Source: Brachyspira alvinipulli ATCC 51933
GTDB taxonomy: Bacteria > Spirochaetota > Brachyspiria > Brachyspirales > Brachyspiraceae
Reading direction: 5' to 3'
NCBI RefSeq assembly: GCF_000518245.1
Contig: NZ_KI912402.1
Location: forward strand, 302,544-366,543
DNA length: 64,000 nucleotides
Shown here: positions 23,749 through 29,545 of the stretch, piece by piece
How the letters are laid out: every line of letters starts with the position of its first letter
How positions within the stretch are numbered: position 1 is the stretch's first letter
The notes under the pieces: generated by a model
Databases searched by the model: none
The model's input: the letters and a program-made list of their open reading frames with translations, nothing else
What the model was told of the DNA's origin: nothing
Made by a program: the position numbers and the translations under genes

Positions 23749-24357
23749 ATGAAAAAGCTTTTTATTTCTATACTATTTTCTTTATTTTTTATATCTTGTT
23801 TAGATTATACTCAGTATGTTACGATTGATGAGAATGATAATATAAGCGTTATTGCAATAGCTACAATATCAAAATCTATGATAGAATTGGCCGCTTTATC
23901 TGAGGGTTACGAAGATACTGTTCCTGTCAGATATTATGATGAAATTTTGAGTGATATGGAAAAGGAAGCTAAAAGCAGTTATCCTAGAAATTTTAAATTC
24001 AAACGTATAAATAATGATAATGAAATAGGACTTTATATAAATGGTACAGTTAAAAAGAGTGATTTGAAAGATAGTGACAGTTACTTGCTTCCAGTAAGAA
24101 CAGGAAATAAATTTATGTTCACTCCTTTTGACAATTCAGAAAATACTAGTGAATATAATGAATATTCTTCTATGCTTAGTTCTATGAAAATGAAATTAAT
24201 AGTTTCAAAAAGCTATATACCTACTATAAGTGCATGTTATATTTCTTCTTATGATGAATTAAGAAATATTAATGTTTATGATTTAAAGGATTCATTTTTA
24301 ATAGAACTTCCTATTTTTGCTGATATTTCTAATCCTATTTTATATATTGAATTATAA
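23749..24357 (+). CDS. hypothetical lipoprotein (202 aa)
   Basis: Signal MKKLFISILFSLFFIS followed by Cys17 (ISCLDY). The start of the mature protein, DYTQYVTIDENDNISVIAIA, resembles the beginning of a class of bacterial lipoproteins with a beta-strand-rich domain. I do not assign a family. AAGAGG precedes the ATG by 8 bp. It is likely co-transcribed with the exported gene 11 bp downstream. Confidence 0.7.
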   Translation: MKKLFISILFSLFFISCLDYTQYVTIDENDNISVIAIATISKSMIELAALSEGYEDTVPVRYYDEILSDMEKEAKSSYPRNFKFKRINNDNEIGLYINGTVKKSDLKDSDSYLLPVRTGNKFMFTPFDNSENTSEYNEYSSMLSSMKMKLIVSKSYIPTISACYISSYDELRNINVYDLKDSFLIELPIFADISNPILYIEL

Positions 24358-24368
24358 TGAGGTGAATT

Positions 24369-24920
24369 ATGTATAGATTATTTGTATTGATATTTTTATT
24401 TATATTTTCTAATTTGTATTCGCAGACATCTCCTCTTAATGTTAATAGCAGTTTTTTTAGCAGAGATGGTAATTTAATATATAACAAAGATTTGAAAGTA
24501 CATGCAATTAGTAAGATAACTTTTGATGATAGGTCTAATTATGAGATGATGGTATTGAAAGGTAAAAACTGGTATTATTATTCGCTTTTACAAAAAGTTG
24601 GAAATTATTATAAATATATAGGTACTATTGCTTTGAATGATGAAAATAATTCATGCAATAATAGAGGTTTTTCTAAAATAGCAAATAAATCCAATTATTT
24701 TACTATAGAACATGAATACTGCAACAACGATGCAGATAAACTTATGTTTTATATTACATTTAAATTAGATACTAATACAAAAAATATATATCTTCATAGA
24801 TGCAGTGCTGTTGTAAATAGGACTCAATTTGATACTGATATAAGCAGTTTGGGAAGAAAAGTTTTATACGATGATGTAACAGAGGATTTGCTTGTTAAAT
24901 TAATTTTTGATAATATGTAA
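24369..24920 (+). CDS. hypothetical exported protein (183 aa)
   Basis: Signal peptide MYRLFVLIFLFIFSNLYSQ with probable cleavage after YSQ or earlier and no lipobox. The remainder is rich in Tyr/Asn/Lys and looks like a beta-sandwich. Two Cys pairs are possible (SCNNRGF, EYCNND, HRCSA). GAGGTG precedes the ATG. Second gene of a pair with the preceding lipoprotein; no homologue recognised. Confidence 0.65.
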   Translation: MYRLFVLIFLFIFSNLYSQTSPLNVNSSFFSRDGNLIYNKDLKVHAISKITFDDRSNYEMMVLKGKNWYYYSLLQKVGNYYKYIGTIALNDENNSCNNRGFSKIANKSNYFTIEHEYCNNDADKLMFYITFKLDTNTKNIYLHRCSAVVNRTQFDTDISSLGRKVLYDDVTEDLLVKLIFDNM

Positions 24921-24921
24921 T

Positions 24922-24940
24922 GATAATGATTGTGAACAAT
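24922..24940 (+). promoter_or_regulatory. Fur/Zur-like box upstream of the zinc locus
   Basis: The stretch aatgataatgattgtgaac contains GATAATGAT, one half of the classic Fur-type palindrome, with a degraded second half. It lies just before the promoter of the 24997 gene and the znu genes. A metalloregulator site is plausible from location; the match is partial. Confidence 0.3.
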
Positions 24941-24958
24941 AAAAAAATATATTCATAA

Positions 24959-24986
24959 TTGACAATTATTTATTATAAATTATAAT
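24959..24986 (+). promoter_or_regulatory. consensus promoter of the Cys/His small membrane protein, near-leaderless
   Basis: TTGACA (24959-24964), 16 bp, TATAAT (24981-24986). The ATG at 24997 starts 10 bases after the -10 box, leaving a leader of only about 3-4 nt and no ribosome site. Confidence 0.65.
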
Positions 24987-24996
24987 AAATAATGTT

Positions 24997-25287
24997 ATGA
25001 AGTTAATATTTATATTATTAGTTATTATTTTTATTACATCTGTATATGCTATACCTGCATATTATGTTATATCGCATTCGGGTCATCATTGTTTGGATGC
25101 AGATTGCGAAACATGTTTAAATTTATCGTCAATAATTAGAATAATTAATAAGATATCAAGAATAGTAGTAGCATGTAGTTTTATAATATATTTTTCTATA
25201 ATACCAATAGTATTTATAAAATATAATATAATATTTTATAATAATAATATTACCCCCATAAAACTTAAGGTCAAGCTTATTAATTGA
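24997..25287 (+). CDS. small membrane protein with HHCxxxxCxxC motif, zinc-locus associated
   Basis: 96 residues with two membrane segments (residues about 2-20 and 52-74). The loop between them carries HSGHHCLDADCETC, a cluster of His and Cys suited to bind a metal on the outer face. Small proteins of this architecture with HxC...DCxxC-type loops occur beside metal transporters in Firmicutes; I recall this as a pattern, not from a search. Its position right in front of znuA supports a zinc-linked role. The start has no Shine-Dalgarno site and is fixed by the near-leaderless promoter. Confidence 0.65.
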   Translation: MKLIFILLVIIFITSVYAIPAYYVISHSGHHCLDADCETCLNLSSIIRIINKISRIVVACSFIIYFSIIPIVFIKYNIIFYNNNITPIKLKVKLIN

Positions 25288-25343
25288 TTTACATCCTTGT
25301 ATTTATAATTATATTTAATTAAAAATATTTCAAGGATTATGTA

Positions 25344-26336
25344 ATGAATAAAAAAATATTAATTTTAATTTTTTTAGTATTATTAACGTCATGTAATAAT
25401 AAAACAGATAATAATATAGATAAAGATGGTAAAATAAAAATAGCAGCTACTATATTTCCTATATATGATTTCACTAAAAATATAATAGGCGATAATGCTA
25501 ATTTAAAGATGATTATAAAACCTGGAATAGAAATTCATTCTTTTAATGCAACTCCTGCTGATATAATAGATATACAAAATGCGGATGTATTTATTTATAT
25601 AGGAGGAGAAAGCGAAGAGTGGGCAGAAAAAGTTGTAGCTTCAATGGATACAAACGGTAAGAAGATAGTGAAGTTAATAGATTATGTAAAAGCATTGGAT
25701 GAAGAGATAGTTGAAGGTATGGAGCATGATGCAGAACATGATCATGGAGAAGAAGCCAATCATGAAGAGCATGAGGAACATATTGAAGAAGCTCATACTC
25801 ATGAAGGAATTTATGATGAGCATATATGGACTTCTCCAAAAAATGCCCAATTAATGGTTAATGCAATATGCGATGCTTTATCAGAGATTGATGCTGATAA
25901 TGCTGATACATATAAATCTAATGCAGAAAAATATAATCAGGAATTAACAGCATTAGATGATGAAATAAGAAATACAGTAAACTTATCTAAAAGAAAAAAT
26001 ATAGTATTCGGAGATAGATTTCCATTCAGATATTTTGCAGATGAGTACGGTTTAGAATATAGAGCACCTTTTACAGGATGCAGCAGTCAAGTTGATGCAA
26101 GCCCTAAAACTATTACTTATTTAATAGAATATATTAAAGACAATAATATACCTTATTTATATTATATAGAGATGAGTAATGAGAAAATAGCTAATACTTT
26201 AGCAGAGCAAACAGGAGTGACTAAATTAAAACTTCATTCCGGACAAAATGTAAGCAAAGAAGAATTTGATTCAGGTGTTACATATTTATCTATTATGAAG
26301 GATAATTTAGAGAGTTTGAAAAAGGGTTTAAATTGA
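25344..26336 (+). CDS. znuA: zinc ABC transporter substrate-binding lipoprotein
   Basis: 330 residues with lipoprotein signal MNKKILILIFLVLLTSC. TroA/ZnuA fold: KPGIEIHSFNATPADI (first His ligand) and DVFIYIGGESEEWAEK. A His/Glu-rich flexible loop spans about residues 128-158 (HDAEHDHGEEANHEEHEE), followed by DEHIWTSPKNAQ. Such loops mark zinc rather than manganese binders. The usual third His motif is replaced by GDRFPFRYFADEYGL, as in a known clostridial-type subgroup. It binds zinc in the periplasm and delivers it to ZnuB. CAAGGAT precedes the ATG. The stop overlaps znuC (TGATG). Confidence 0.92.
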   Translation: MNKKILILIFLVLLTSCNNKTDNNIDKDGKIKIAATIFPIYDFTKNIIGDNANLKMIIKPGIEIHSFNATPADIIDIQNADVFIYIGGESEEWAEKVVASMDTNGKKIVKLIDYVKALDEEIVEGMEHDAEHDHGEEANHEEHEEHIEEAHTHEGIYDEHIWTSPKNAQLMVNAICDALSEIDADNADTYKSNAEKYNQELTALDDEIRNTVNLSKRKNIVFGDRFPFRYFADEYGLEYRAPFTGCSSQVDASPKTITYLIEYIKDNNIPYLYYIEMSNEKIANTLAEQTGVTKLKLHSGQNVSKEEFDSGVTYLSIMKDNLESLKKGLN

Positions 26337-27028
26337 TGTTGAATATAAAAGATTTATCGGTATTTTATGATAGTAATGAGGTATTATCTAATATCAATTT
26401 CTCTTTGAATAAAGGAGATTATCTTTCTATAATAGGTGAGAATGGTTCTGGTAAAACTACATTAATAAAAACTATACTTGGACTAATAAAACCTAAAAAA
26501 GGAAACATAGTTTTTAACAGTGTAAGGAAAAATGAAATAGGGTATTTACCTCAGCAAGGAATAGTACAAAAATCTTTTCCGGCAAGCGTATTTGAAGTGG
26601 TTATATCAGGAAGATTAAATAAGAAAAAGTTTCTGCCTTTTTATACTTCAAAAGATAAAAAAATAACTTTAGATAATTTAAAAAAACTTAATATAGAGAA
26701 TTTAAAAAATAAATCATATAAAGATTTATCAGAAGGACAGCAGCAGAGGGTAGCATTGGCTAGGGCATTATGTTCTACAAAAGAGTTATTAATACTTGAT
26801 GAGCCTTCCACAGGATTAGATCCTATAGCTACAGTTGATCTTTATAATTTGATAAAAAAACTTAATAGTGAAGTTACTATTATTATGGTTTCGCATGATA
26901 TAGCAAGTGCAATAAAATACTCTAATAAAATACTTCATTTGAATAAAGATATGCTTTTTTTTGGAAGCACAGAGGATTATATAAAAACGGATATATACCA
27001 AAGAATATCAGGGGAGGATATGAAATGA
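26336..27028 (+). CDS. znuC: zinc ABC transporter ATP-binding protein
   Basis: 230 residues from the ATG at 26336, which overlaps the znuA stop; AAAGGG lies 9 bp upstream. Walker A GENGSGKTT, Q-loop GYLPQQG, signature LSEGQQQRVALARAL, Walker B LLILDEPSTGLD, H-loop MVSHDIASA. It drives import through ZnuB and overlaps it by 4 bp (ATGA). Confidence 0.95.
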   Translation: MLNIKDLSVFYDSNEVLSNINFSLNKGDYLSIIGENGSGKTTLIKTILGLIKPKKGNIVFNSVRKNEIGYLPQQGIVQKSFPASVFEVVISGRLNKKKFLPFYTSKDKKITLDNLKKLNIENLKNKSYKDLSEGQQQRVALARALCSTKELLILDEPSTGLDPIATVDLYNLIKKLNSEVTIIMVSHDIASAIKYSNKILHLNKDMLFFGSTEDYIKTDIYQRISGEDMK

Positions 27029-27852
27029 TTGCTTTGCTTCAGGAACTTTTTTCATATACCTTCATTGTAAGGGCTGTTATAGTTGGTATATTGGTTTCAT
27101 TATGTGCTGCTCTTTTAGGCGTTAACTTAGTTTTAAAAAGATATTCTATGATAGGTATTGGACTTTCAAATGTAGGATTCGGAGCATTATCTCTTTCTAT
27201 GATGTTTGGTTTTTCTACTTTGAAGCTTTCTATACCTATAGTTGCTATTGCTTCAATACTTCTTTTGAGATTAAGTGAAAATAGCAAAATAAAAGGAGAT
27301 GCAGCTATTGCTTTGATATCAAGTGTATCTTTAGCTGTAGGTATTATTGCCATTACTGTAAAAACAGGAATAAATACGGATGTATGTAATTATATGTTTG
27401 GAAGTATACTTGCTATGAGTAAAAGTGAAGTTTACATAAGTATAATTGTTAGTGTTATAGTTATAGTACTTTATGTATTATTTTATAATAAAATATTTTT
27501 AGTGACTTTTGATGAAAATTTTGCCCGTGCTGTAGGTATTAATGCTGAGCTTTATAATATGCTTATATCTATACTTACATCTTTGATAATAGTATTGGGT
27601 ATGAGAATGATGGGGGCTATGCTTATATCAAGTTTGATAATATTTCCGGCATTAACTTCTATGAGAGTATTTAATACTTTTAAGAGTGTGGTAATTTCAT
27701 CGGCTGTATTATCAGTATTTTGCTTTTTTATAGGTATAGTTGCATCATTTCAATTGGAATATCCTACAGGAGCATGTATTGTTATGGTTAATTTGGCTAT
27801 GCTTTTAATATTTTCTGTTATAGGAAAATTTGTAAAATTAGGAGCAAAATAA
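27025..27852 (+). CDS. znuB: zinc ABC transporter permease
   Basis: 275 residues with about eight membrane helices of the ABC-3 family. YSMIGIGLSNVGFGALSLS and the cytoplasmic coupling segment around FDENFARAVGI are recognisable. GAGGAT precedes the ATG, which overlaps the znuC stop. It forms the inner-membrane channel for zinc. Confidence 0.93.
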   Translation: MIALLQELFSYTFIVRAVIVGILVSLCAALLGVNLVLKRYSMIGIGLSNVGFGALSLSMMFGFSTLKLSIPIVAIASILLLRLSENSKIKGDAAIALISSVSLAVGIIAITVKTGINTDVCNYMFGSILAMSKSEVYISIIVSVIVIVLYVLFYNKIFLVTFDENFARAVGINAELYNMLISILTSLIIVLGMRMMGAMLISSLIIFPALTSMRVFNTFKSVVISSAVLSVFCFFIGIVASFQLEYPTGACIVMVNLAMLLIFSVIGKFVKLGAK

Positions 27853-27869
27853 AAAGGAGAAATATGGAT

Positions 27870-28427
27870 ATGAAAAAAATATTATTTTTATTTATTATAT
27901 TGCTGTCATTTTCTTCTTGTTCAAAAAAAGAATATAATGACGGATGGTTTGATATAGAAAAAAATTATGTTGATATACCGAAGAAAAAATATGATTATGG
28001 AAATCCTAGAGATAAGTCTTCAAATGATGCTAATAATGCTGCAAGTTCTTCATCATCTATTGATATGAATAATGTTATAGAAATAAAAGAAAGAATGTTT
28101 ATAAATCAATGCAATGATGTTTATTTGAATCCGGATGATTACAGAGGGAAAATAATAAAACTTCAAGGTATATATGATGGATTTACAGATGAAGAAACTG
28201 GAGAGAAACTTAATTTTGTATTCAGATATGGACCAGGATGCTGCGGATATGATGGCGTTGCAGGTTTTGAGTTTAATTATAACGGTGAAATACCTAATCC
28301 CCAGGATTGGATTGAAGTCGTTGGTGTTGTGGAGATATTAGATATAGACAATTATGAAACCGTTAGACTTAATGCTATAAGTTTGAATGTACTCGATAAA
28401 AGAGGAAAAGAATTTGTAGCTAATTAA
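27870..28427 (+). CDS. lipoprotein with YcgQ/TIGR03943-like CCxxD domain, zinc-locus associated
   Basis: The ATG at 27870 is preferred over that at 27864, because AGGAG lies 10 bp rather than 4 bp upstream and the lipoprotein signal MKKILFLFIILLSFSSC begins there. The C-terminal 110 residues contain VFRYGPGCCGYDGVAGFEF, then DWIEVVGVVEI. The rF...CC..D layout followed by a W-x-x-V-x-G strand matches the soluble part of YcgQ-type proteins (COG3689), known near metal permeases and in Zur regulons. The paired Cys may bind a metal. It lies 17 bp after znuB, so probably the last gene of the zinc operon. Confidence 0.65.
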   Translation: MKKILFLFIILLSFSSCSKKEYNDGWFDIEKNYVDIPKKKYDYGNPRDKSSNDANNAASSSSSIDMNNVIEIKERMFINQCNDVYLNPDDYRGKIIKLQGIYDGFTDEETGEKLNFVFRYGPGCCGYDGVAGFEFNYNGEIPNPQDWIEVVGVVEILDIDNYETVRLNAISLNVLDKRGKEFVAN

Positions 28428-28470
28428 TTTAGATAATTTTCGTATATTTATATTTTATAAACCATGTTGA

Positions 28471-28512
28471 GGGCAAAGTAATAATATCACTTATTATTTT
28501 GCCCGCTTTTAT
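28471..28512 (+). terminator. intrinsic terminator of the zinc operon
   Basis: GGGCAAAGTAATAA pairs with TTATTATTTTGCCC (one A/T shift) around ATCAC, followed by GCTTTTATATTTT. Confidence 0.75.
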
Positions 28513-28519
28513 ATTTTAT

Positions 28520-29545
28520 TTATTTCCAAAAAGCCCCAACTCTTTTTCTAACATTTTCTTTCAAATCATAATAATAAAGAGCTATATCATAAGCATGATA
28601 AACGCCTTTTTCAAATACACTTTTTTCTCCTAAGTAAAAATCATCAGGATTTATGGTGCTGCATTTTATAACGCCTCTTGCTTTATCAACTTTTGCATCT
28701 GCTATTTTTGTTGGTTTTCCATAATTTGATGCAATATTAGCTCCTATGCTTTGTTCTTTTGTTGCTATAGTTTCATCTAATGTCCAAGTTATAGGATTAA
28801 TTGAAATAGAGCCTTCAAGAACGGTAGGGTTATATCCGTTAAAATCTGGGCTTTCAGTGTTGTATGAAATTATTACTCCAGTGTCATATTCGCTGTTTGC
28901 AAATCTTAAATGAGGATTTTCATCTAACTCTTTTTGAGTAACAGAATATCCAAGCACATAAGCTGCAACCATTCTATTTTTTAAATTTTCATTTGTCTTG
29001 AAATAATCCTTTAATATTTCTTTTATCATTATAGCACCTTGAGAATGTCCTACTAATATGAAAGGTCTGATATTATTATAATTTTTTATATAATAATCAA
29101 ATGCAGCAATAGCATCTTCTTTTGGTTCTGCGAAAAAGTATTTATCTTGTTCTTCTCTGCTTATATTATTTTTTTTATCTACTAAATATAAAGCATCAGC
29201 TTGTCTGTAGAATGGGGCGTATACACTTGCTGTTTCATCAAATATTCCTATATGCTGCATCATCATATTTGTAGCTCCGCTTCTCATTGGGGCATAATCT
29301 ATAGGACATATTATACTTTCATTTGTATTTTCTCTTTCCCAAGTTGTAGGGTATAAATAAAATACATCTACTTCTCTGTCATTTGGATTTTCTGGTATGG
29401 ACATCCAATTATTTTTATCTGAATAGTCTGTTTTGGTTTCTATTGTTTTTATTATCCCTATTGTTTCTGAGGATTTATTATTACAGCTTAATATAGTAAT
29501 AATAATTAATGATACGGTGATGAATATTTTAATTTTATTAATCAT
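28520..29545 (-). CDS. DUF3089 alpha/beta-hydrolase lipoprotein (lipase/esterase-like)
   Basis: 341 residues with lipoprotein signal IKIFITVSLIIITILSC. DUF3089 marks: VDVFYLYPTTWERE near the N-terminus, YAPFYRQADALY, then the nucleophile elbow PFILVGHSQGAIMIKE with Ser in GHSQG, and a C-terminal VYHAYDIALYYYDLKENV with the likely catalytic His. The fold is that of esterases acting on lipids or polyesters; no substrate can be named. Anchored on the outside of a membrane by its lipid. GGATG precedes the ATG. It is convergent with the zinc operon. Confidence 0.8.
   Translation of the reverse strand: MINKIKIFITVSLIIITILSCNNKSSETIGIIKTIETKTDYSDKNNWMSIPENPNDREVDVFYLYPTTWERENTNESIICPIDYAPMRSGATNMMMQHIGIFDETASVYAPFYRQADALYLVDKKNNISREEQDKYFFAEPKEDAIAAFDYYIKNYNNIRPFILVGHSQGAIMIKEILKDYFKTNENLKNRMVAAYVLGYSVTQKELDENPHLRFANSEYDTGVIISYNTESPDFNGYNPTVLEGSISINPITWTLDETIATKEQSIGANIASNYGKPTKIADAKVDKARGVIKCSTINPDDFYLGEKSVFEKGVYHAYDIALYYYDLKENVRKRVGAFWK

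Follow-up and report, generated by a model that had tools for sequence, protein, structure and literature searches.

The locus and its genes

Within a 64,000-nucleotide stretch of the Brachyspira alvinipulli ATCC 51933 genome (contig NZ_KI912402.1, positions 302,544 to 366,543; total genome 3.42 Mb), here called the window, lies a putative zinc-uptake locus of five same-strand genes, which span positions 24997–28427 in the order M, znuA, znuC, znuB and D (Table 1). The three znu genes encode a ZnuA-type substrate-binding protein (SBP), an ATP-binding cassette (ABC) ATPase and an ABC-3 permease, which places the importer in cluster A-I by the definition of that cluster. The two flanking genes had been singled out in an original prediction made from the DNA letters, and both are there as it described them: M is a 96-amino-acid (aa) open reading frame (ORF) with an HHC-x4-C-x2-C motif 5′ of znuACB, and D, 3′ of znuACB, is a lipoprotein with a CCGYD sequence and a DUF1980_C domain (PF21537) that scores above the gathering cut-off of that family.

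The five genes are likely to form one operon, because the sole promoter in 24300–28600 with a 12/12 match to the sigma-70 consensus stands before M and a terminator-like hairpin follows D. Promoter-like sites of any strength are no commoner in this interval than in shuffled sequence (38 vs 37.8). The −10 box is separated from the ATG of M by only 10 bases (24981–24997), and the gap is 6–10 bases in each of the 13 promoter-bearing loci, so that the M transcript may be leaderless or have a very short leader.

Table 1. Features of the M-znuA-znuC-znuB-D locus, in window coordinates
Feature	Coordinates	Strand	Evidence or remark
Perfect 7-1-7 palindrome ATAATTG-A-CAATTAT, ATAATTGACAATTAT, over the −35 box	24955–24969		candidate operator of a Fur-family repressor
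Promoter TTGACA-16-TATAAT	24959–24986	+	12/12 sigma-70 match
M, predicted 96-aa membrane hairpin, outer loop HHCLDADCETC, tail IKLKVKLIN	24997–25287	+	non-Brachyspira profile, AlphaFold2, charge pattern
ZnuA-like lipoprotein, GDRF/GCS subclass, His-rich loop	25344–26336	+	PF01297 9e-79, ligand columns, alignment to 2o1e and AdcA 7jj8
Codons for DRFPFRY, ZnuA subclass signature	26013–26033	+	pattern searches
ZnuC ATPase	26333–27028	+	ABC_tran 7.5e-30; an ATG at 26336 overlaps the znuA stop
ZnuB permease	27025–27852	+	ABC-3 2.4e-52
D, lipoprotein (lipobox Cys19), predicted OB-fold domain, C126-C127	27864–28427	+	PF21537 41.4 bits, cut-off 25.9
Terminator-like hairpin 3′ of D	28471–28504	+	14-pair stem, T-rich tail

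M and D accompany the importer across classes and phyla

A sequence search found M in 16 of the 41 genomes covered, all 16 of them Brachyspira, and a profile found it in a 17th (G006). The Brachyspira catarrhinii M, which reads HHDCIGEDCPICQC, linked the family to a motif that is also present in Clostridia, in Treponema and other spirochaetes, and in Synergistaceae. A scan with this motif yielded at least 120 stretches from Clostridia, spirochaetes and Synergistaceae, and among the 80 motif-selected M loci listed, ZnuA is the next importer gene, at most 400 bp away, in 74. The six others are three in which an ABC ATPase gene comes first and ZnuA follows 1.2–1.5 kb on (L096, L103, L127), one with an ABC ATPase (L138), one at a contig end (L144) and one with ZnuB and D (L159). 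An iterated profile finds D, divergent members included, in 28 of the 32 listed M loci with at least 4 kb downstream, its place being either 3′ of ZnuB or between the ZnuA and ZnuC genes; the D match of L168, one of these 28, is a membrane-type copy 4.1 kb away.

The profile of our 34-member M alignment (A1) finds matches in 23 of 149 genomes of spirochaetes (including 15 Brachyspira) and in 15 of 196 from Clostridia, the centre of the latter sample (G155) having been picked because M is present there. All six strong spirochaete matches outside Brachyspira lie directly 5′ of ZnuA, as do 10 of the 11 strong matches in Clostridia (10 genomes), the 11th being directly 5′ of D. Weak matches are more mixed: ZnuA lies 1.4 kb on in G141, none was seen in G074, an interrupted copy precedes ZnuC-ZnuB-D in G276, and four more in Clostridia are without znu genes. 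In Brachyspira itself, 20 of 25 genomes have D, and the D-bearing genomes left without M are three, two in which the contig ends there (G002, G020) and one with a transposase-like ORF (G012). The five Brachyspira genomes without D are also without M and have only a second ZnuA type (the pattern search covered four of the five).

Thus the neighbourhoods of M and D in relatives are not random. Since their linkage to the importer is kept across classes and phyla, the two extra proteins are likely to be accessory to zinc import, and on this point the original prediction is supported.

Two of these loci differ in construction. In B. catarrhinii a more Clostridia-like operon with a ZnuA-ZinT fusion is found (L088:2622–6531); this version is 64% identical to that of a Clostridium metagenome-assembled genome (MAG) vs 43% to that of the window, and this closer similarity suggests that the operon was replaced by transfer. 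At L153:4138–5418, ZnuB and D lie in one reading frame, possibly a natural fusion.

The M-linked ZnuA proteins have altered ligand positions

Zinc SBPs of this type are taken to bind the metal through His and carboxylate ligands. Those of AdcA are His63, His140, His204 and Glu279, as given in the accessible part of PMC7858048. The window ZnuA keeps the first two as H65 and H160; the third His is replaced by D224-R225, Q301 stands at the Glu279 position and a Cys, C246, is added, for which we infer a place relative to the metal from strand order. Where the solved zinc SBPs 2o1e and AdcA (7jj8) read QHxAFxY, the window protein reads GDRFPFRY. At the His204 position HMMER aligns Arg and a profile alignment aligns Asp, and the His is gone in both. 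The canonical three-His-one-Glu site of ZnuA/AdcA is thus absent from the window ZnuA in sequence comparison.

These changes are shared by nearly all ZnuA proteins encoded beside M. Of 97 ZnuA frames linked to M, 87 match DRFPFR and GCS without deviation; 3 are canonical, and 7 fall outside the strict pattern, five of the latter being DRFP variants with the GCS Cys and two being truncated or odd (L149, L152). For comparison we used 23 controls, which comprise high-scoring ZnuAs of genomes without M, the second system of the window genome (L221), G027 (L293) and G034 (L090); 16 of them gave a residue at the Cys column. Of 110 M loci supplied (the Eisenbergiella locus twice, as L107 and L282), 95 ZnuA frames were scored, and the column holds Cys in 92 of these 95 (91 in a second count) vs one of the 16 scored controls, close relatives being included and relatedness uncorrected in all ZnuA counts. 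The sole control with the Cys, G034, encodes D and lacks M. The third His is kept in 22 of 23 controls (13 by pattern, 9 by eye on printed stretches) vs 3 of 95 M-linked proteins; the remaining control is again G034, with DRFPFR. At the Glu279 column, 90 M-linked proteins have Gln (78), His (8) or Glu (4), and His also occurs in 4 of 14 controls. Judged by these columns, the M-linked ZnuA is a distinct subclass with changed predicted ligand positions and an added Cys.

The signature also tracks M at the level of genomes. Of the 196 Clostridia genomes, 22 contain DRFPFRY codons, among them all 10 with a strong M; one of the 22 (G223) has Ser for Arg and no ZnuA was found there. With the sample centre G155 left aside, all 9 strong-M genomes fall within 21 of 195, for which chance would give about 3e-10 with relatedness ignored. 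In spirochaetes DRFPFRY is found in 24 of 149 genomes, including 20 of the 21 M genomes (the weak matches G074 and G141 set aside), and in the exception, G133, ZnuA reads GDRFPFTY. The ZnuA subclass is therefore the core of the system and M and D are common additions, because M nearly always comes with a GDRF/GCS ZnuA but not conversely (see below).

A second ZnuABC-like operon of the window genome (L221:556–3008) has an SBP with HPAFGHF and no added Cys, and its ATPase ends in a His/Cys-rich tail, HKHKHPHNNDVCSCC.

M is a family of small membrane proteins with a His/Cys loop

Members of the M family have an HxC-x4-C-x2-C loop (HxCxGEDCPxC) between two hydrophobic helices, a tail of the form LKVKLxN and a gene 5′ of znuA, and the window M has all of these. 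A profile of 28 non-Brachyspira members finds the window M at 4e-12 (Z set to 10000), its sole match among 159 window ORFs. No Pfam or NCBIfam model recurs in the family, each listed model matching 1 of 34 members in a chance-like manner. AlphaFold2 predicts a helical hairpin (helices 2–27 and 38–83; predicted local distance difference test, pLDDT, 88.7). Summed over the 34 members, K/R and D/E residues number 95 and 9 in the N-terminal part, 7 and 130 in the loop, and 73 and 17 in the tail. From this charge distribution we infer that both ends of M lie inside and the acidic His/Cys loop outside.

The loop His, Cys and Glu residues and the tail Lys are at least 90% conserved in A1; as 28 of the 34 rows were selected on the motif, its strong conservation is partly by construction. 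The CxxC of the loop is nevertheless present in all 16 Brachyspira copies and in all 19 profile-found copies, neither set being motif-chosen. The position of the first loop Cys varies: in the 16 Brachyspira copies it holds His in 12, Cys in L070 and L072 and Gln in L084, and in the Brachyspira locus L087 the loop Cys comes one residue earlier. Four Clostridia proteins (L287, L289, L290, L292) are without the first loop Cys and have HxHD before a longer loop. Since a Cys/His exchange is tolerated by metal ligands, this pattern fits what would be expected of a metal ligand at the first loop Cys.

D is a DUF1980-type lipoprotein

PF21537 matches 9 of the 33 members of our D alignment (A2) at E 0.01. 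The window D falls below the cut-off of TIGR03943, the YcgQ-type equivalog model (34.5 vs 88.8 bits). All 33 aligned members have the CC pair and at least 90% have the lipobox Cys, and CC is found in 66 of 69 D frames; the exceptions are L091 and L119, which have CxC, and L262, which is cut off by the locus end. The CCxxD pattern that had been noted for the window copy as typical of YcgQ proteins extends to most Brachyspira D proteins and to the membrane-type D of L089; it does not hold for most of the wider lipoprotein family, which has CCxxG. The model of D is an oligonucleotide/oligosaccharide-binding (OB) fold whose core blocks have mean pLDDT values of 87–95. A PDB sequence search gave nothing credible (best E 0.039), and a fold search returned the OB folds of tRNA synthetases, SSB, RPA and MCM. 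An OB fold such as that predicted for D is widespread and gives no clue to function.

In other settings the partner of a DUF1980 protein is an ArsP_1 permease, as with YcgQ and YcgR. That pairing was not seen here, as there is no ArsP_1 permease gene among the eight proteins of the scanned neighbourhood. In Bacillus anthracis, Zur binds upstream of the ArsP_1 permease gene BAS1632 by electrophoretic mobility shift assay (PMC6336718, from the part of the text available); by our own reading BAS1632 is a YcgR relative, the partner of a YcgQ/DUF1980 protein. ScfA (YcgR) and ScfB (YcgQ), the homologues in group A Streptococcus, are described in an accessible section of PMC5584981 as needed for fitness in mouse infection and as having no known function. 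Our literature search covered papers outside subscription, and in these TIGR03943 is unmentioned and DUF1980 occurs in a single paper, as a table label.

Upstream sites and regulation

Fifteen Brachyspira upstream regions were aligned, the loci L075 (assembly gap), L081 (contig start) and L071, L073 and L010 (no M) being left aside. The partial Fur/Zur-like half-site ATGATAATGATT, which the original prediction placed in front of the locus, occurs in the window only and is absent from the 14 other regions; we have accordingly rejected it as a conserved operator (1 of 15, the window itself). The palindrome ATAATTGACAATTAT that covers the −35 box is found in 13 of the 15 and is missing from the distant L087 and L088. 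The window genome encodes one FUR-family protein by PF01475, on another contig, and regulation of the operon by this single protein is possible. In other taxa, 7 of 19 M regions have a Fur-like gene immediately 5′ of M, some of the scores being weak. Upstream of the motif loci, palindromes show a weak excess (9-1-9 with at least 8 matched, 9 of 79 vs 2.5 expected), which we do not use as evidence.

A proposed zinc importer with two probable helpers

Our preferred reading, to which we give a probability of about one half, is that the five genes form an operon for zinc import by a distinct cluster A-I (ZnuABC/AdcABC) subclass, M and D being helpers of a ZnuA with an added Cys. It draws on the conserved M-A-C-B-D module, the ligand changes in ZnuA and the family assignments, together with the predicted folds. 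M would sit in the membrane next to ZnuB, with both ends inside and the His/Cys loop outside, and the outer loop would bind zinc. D, with the CC pair in its lipoprotein OB domain, would be a second zinc- or thiol-bearing helper. Zinc would then move between the Cys-containing site of ZnuA and one or both of M and D, at the outer face of the membrane, before going on through ZnuB. Such direct hand-over, the relay to ZnuA that had been proposed at the outset, is a possible form of the assistance.

Several observations weigh against this reading. The 80 listed loci owe their place in the neighbourhood counts to the M motif. A true DRFPFRY-type ZnuA is found without an adjoining M in 11 of 21 Clostridia genomes, of which three have D (L363, L371, L372) and eight have none in the region fetched; G012, G034, G100 and G129 likewise have a DRFPFRY ZnuA and D with no M match, and three M-linked ZnuAs (L099, L133, L168) are canonical. 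In Eisenbergiella tayi (G155) an M-D pair stands with no znu genes within 12 kb (L274:5274–6337), and therefore the partnership need not be with ZnuA. In G012 the transposase-like ORF occupies the expected place of M directly before znuA (L073:1–306), a natural loss or displacement of M. In two divergent D proteins (L091:6937–7620 and L119:3164–3865) the CC pair gives way to CxC with additional Cys residues, and residues 121–130 of the window D, which hold the CC, are the least certain stretch of the modelled core (mean pLDDT 74). No regulon emerges from the palindrome in its own genome, where there is one exact copy and where at most one mismatch gives 9 sites vs 8 for a reversed control pattern; the genes beside the eight one-mismatch sites show no zinc theme as far as they are readable (no family scan of these genes was made). 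Finally, the accessible section of PMC5584981 reports Bacillus subtilis ycgR and ycgQ under extracytoplasmic function (ECF) sigma factors, not Zur.

The hosts listed for the M motif belong to groups known as anaerobes, and because thiols stay reduced in anaerobes, extracytoplasmic thiols would be affordable to them. We put forward, tentatively and with less confidence than the reading above, that anaerobes have here a zinc importer based on thiolates: His2-Cys(-Asp) in ZnuA, His-Cys3 or His-Cys2 in M and the Cys pair of D would make up a chain for zinc outside the cytoplasm, one that functions only if thiols are kept reduced and that competes with strong gut zinc sequesterers by thiolate affinity.

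Small membrane regulators of transporters are known, and a tail with highly conserved Lys, which the charge rule puts at the inner face, would be superfluous for a pure capture protein. M could accordingly be a zinc-sensing gate, whose outer site reads periplasmic zinc and whose cytoplasmic tail, by acting on ZnuB/ZnuC, lets transport proceed or slows it. We consider this unlikely, as M is also paired with D away from any znu genes (L274) and the M tail is all the evidence for it. The CPxC that many M proteins have at the N-terminal end of their second predicted helix, the CC of D and the Cys of ZnuA would also suit thiol-redox helpers, M and D keeping the ZnuA Cys reduced or forming a mixed disulfide with it. 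This is improbable: the Pro is not conserved in Brachyspira M (CETC), the exchange of the first Cys for His suits metal binding better, and the fold predicted for M is a hairpin rather than that of thioredoxin. Import of another metal (e.g. Mn, Fe, Co or Cu) instead of zinc is more doubtful still, for although the C-lobe ligand positions of ZnuA differ from those of AdcA/ZnuA and the genome has a second ZnuA-like system (L221), ZnuA has a His-rich acidic loop as in zinc SBPs, ZnuA is fused to ZinT in B. catarrhinii (PF09223 4e-39), and Zur binding upstream of an ArsP_1 permease gene has been published (PMC6336718, in the part cited above).

Relation to known systems

The proposed zinc importer with its two helpers resembles ZnuABC/AdcABC in its SBP, ATPase and permease families, in its His-rich loop and in the two N-lobe His ligands kept by the window ZnuA; it differs in that window-type ZnuAs are without the third His, mostly have Gln or His at the fourth position and have an added Cys, and in having two extra proteins. 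With YcgQ (DUF1980)/YcgR (ArsP_1) it shares the DUF1980_C domain and CCxxD of the window D, whereas this D is a lipoprotein, is encoded beside ZnuACB rather than beside an ArsP_1 permease, and stays below the TIGR03943 cut-off. In AztABCD the metallochaperone AztD hands zinc to AztC (PMC6689063, in the portion available), and there too an extra extracytoplasmic protein is tied to a zinc ABC importer; AztD, however, is a β-propeller, unlike the predicted helical hairpin of M and the predicted OB fold of D. AdcA with its fused ZinT has a parallel in the B. catarrhinii ZnuA-ZinT fusion, and other M-linked ZnuAs of 509–579 aa are similar in length, but the window ZnuA has no ZinT domain.

The M motif strings GEDCPIC, GEDCPVC and HDCTGEDC occur in no paper covered by the literature search, and the passage found on co-mention of Brachyspira and znuA concerns, as far as that excerpt goes, Salmonella ZnuABC. 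The kind of importer is already known; zinc may be captured here in a Cys-assisted manner for which no description was found (the ZnuA ligand variant itself was not searched in print). If the preferred reading is true, a Cys-gaining ZnuA subclass with M and D would account for some of the zinc biology of gut anaerobes, and a function would be suggested for DUF1980 proteins that have fitness phenotypes but no known activity, such as ScfAB in the accessible section of PMC5584981. The purified proteins of the system offer direct tests.

Genes upstream of the locus

A 202-aa lipoprotein is encoded at 23749–24357 and precedes M in 12 other Brachyspira loci. Between it and M lies a 183-aa ORF (24369–24920), for which none of the other Brachyspira loci in the comparison gave a match at 1e-3.

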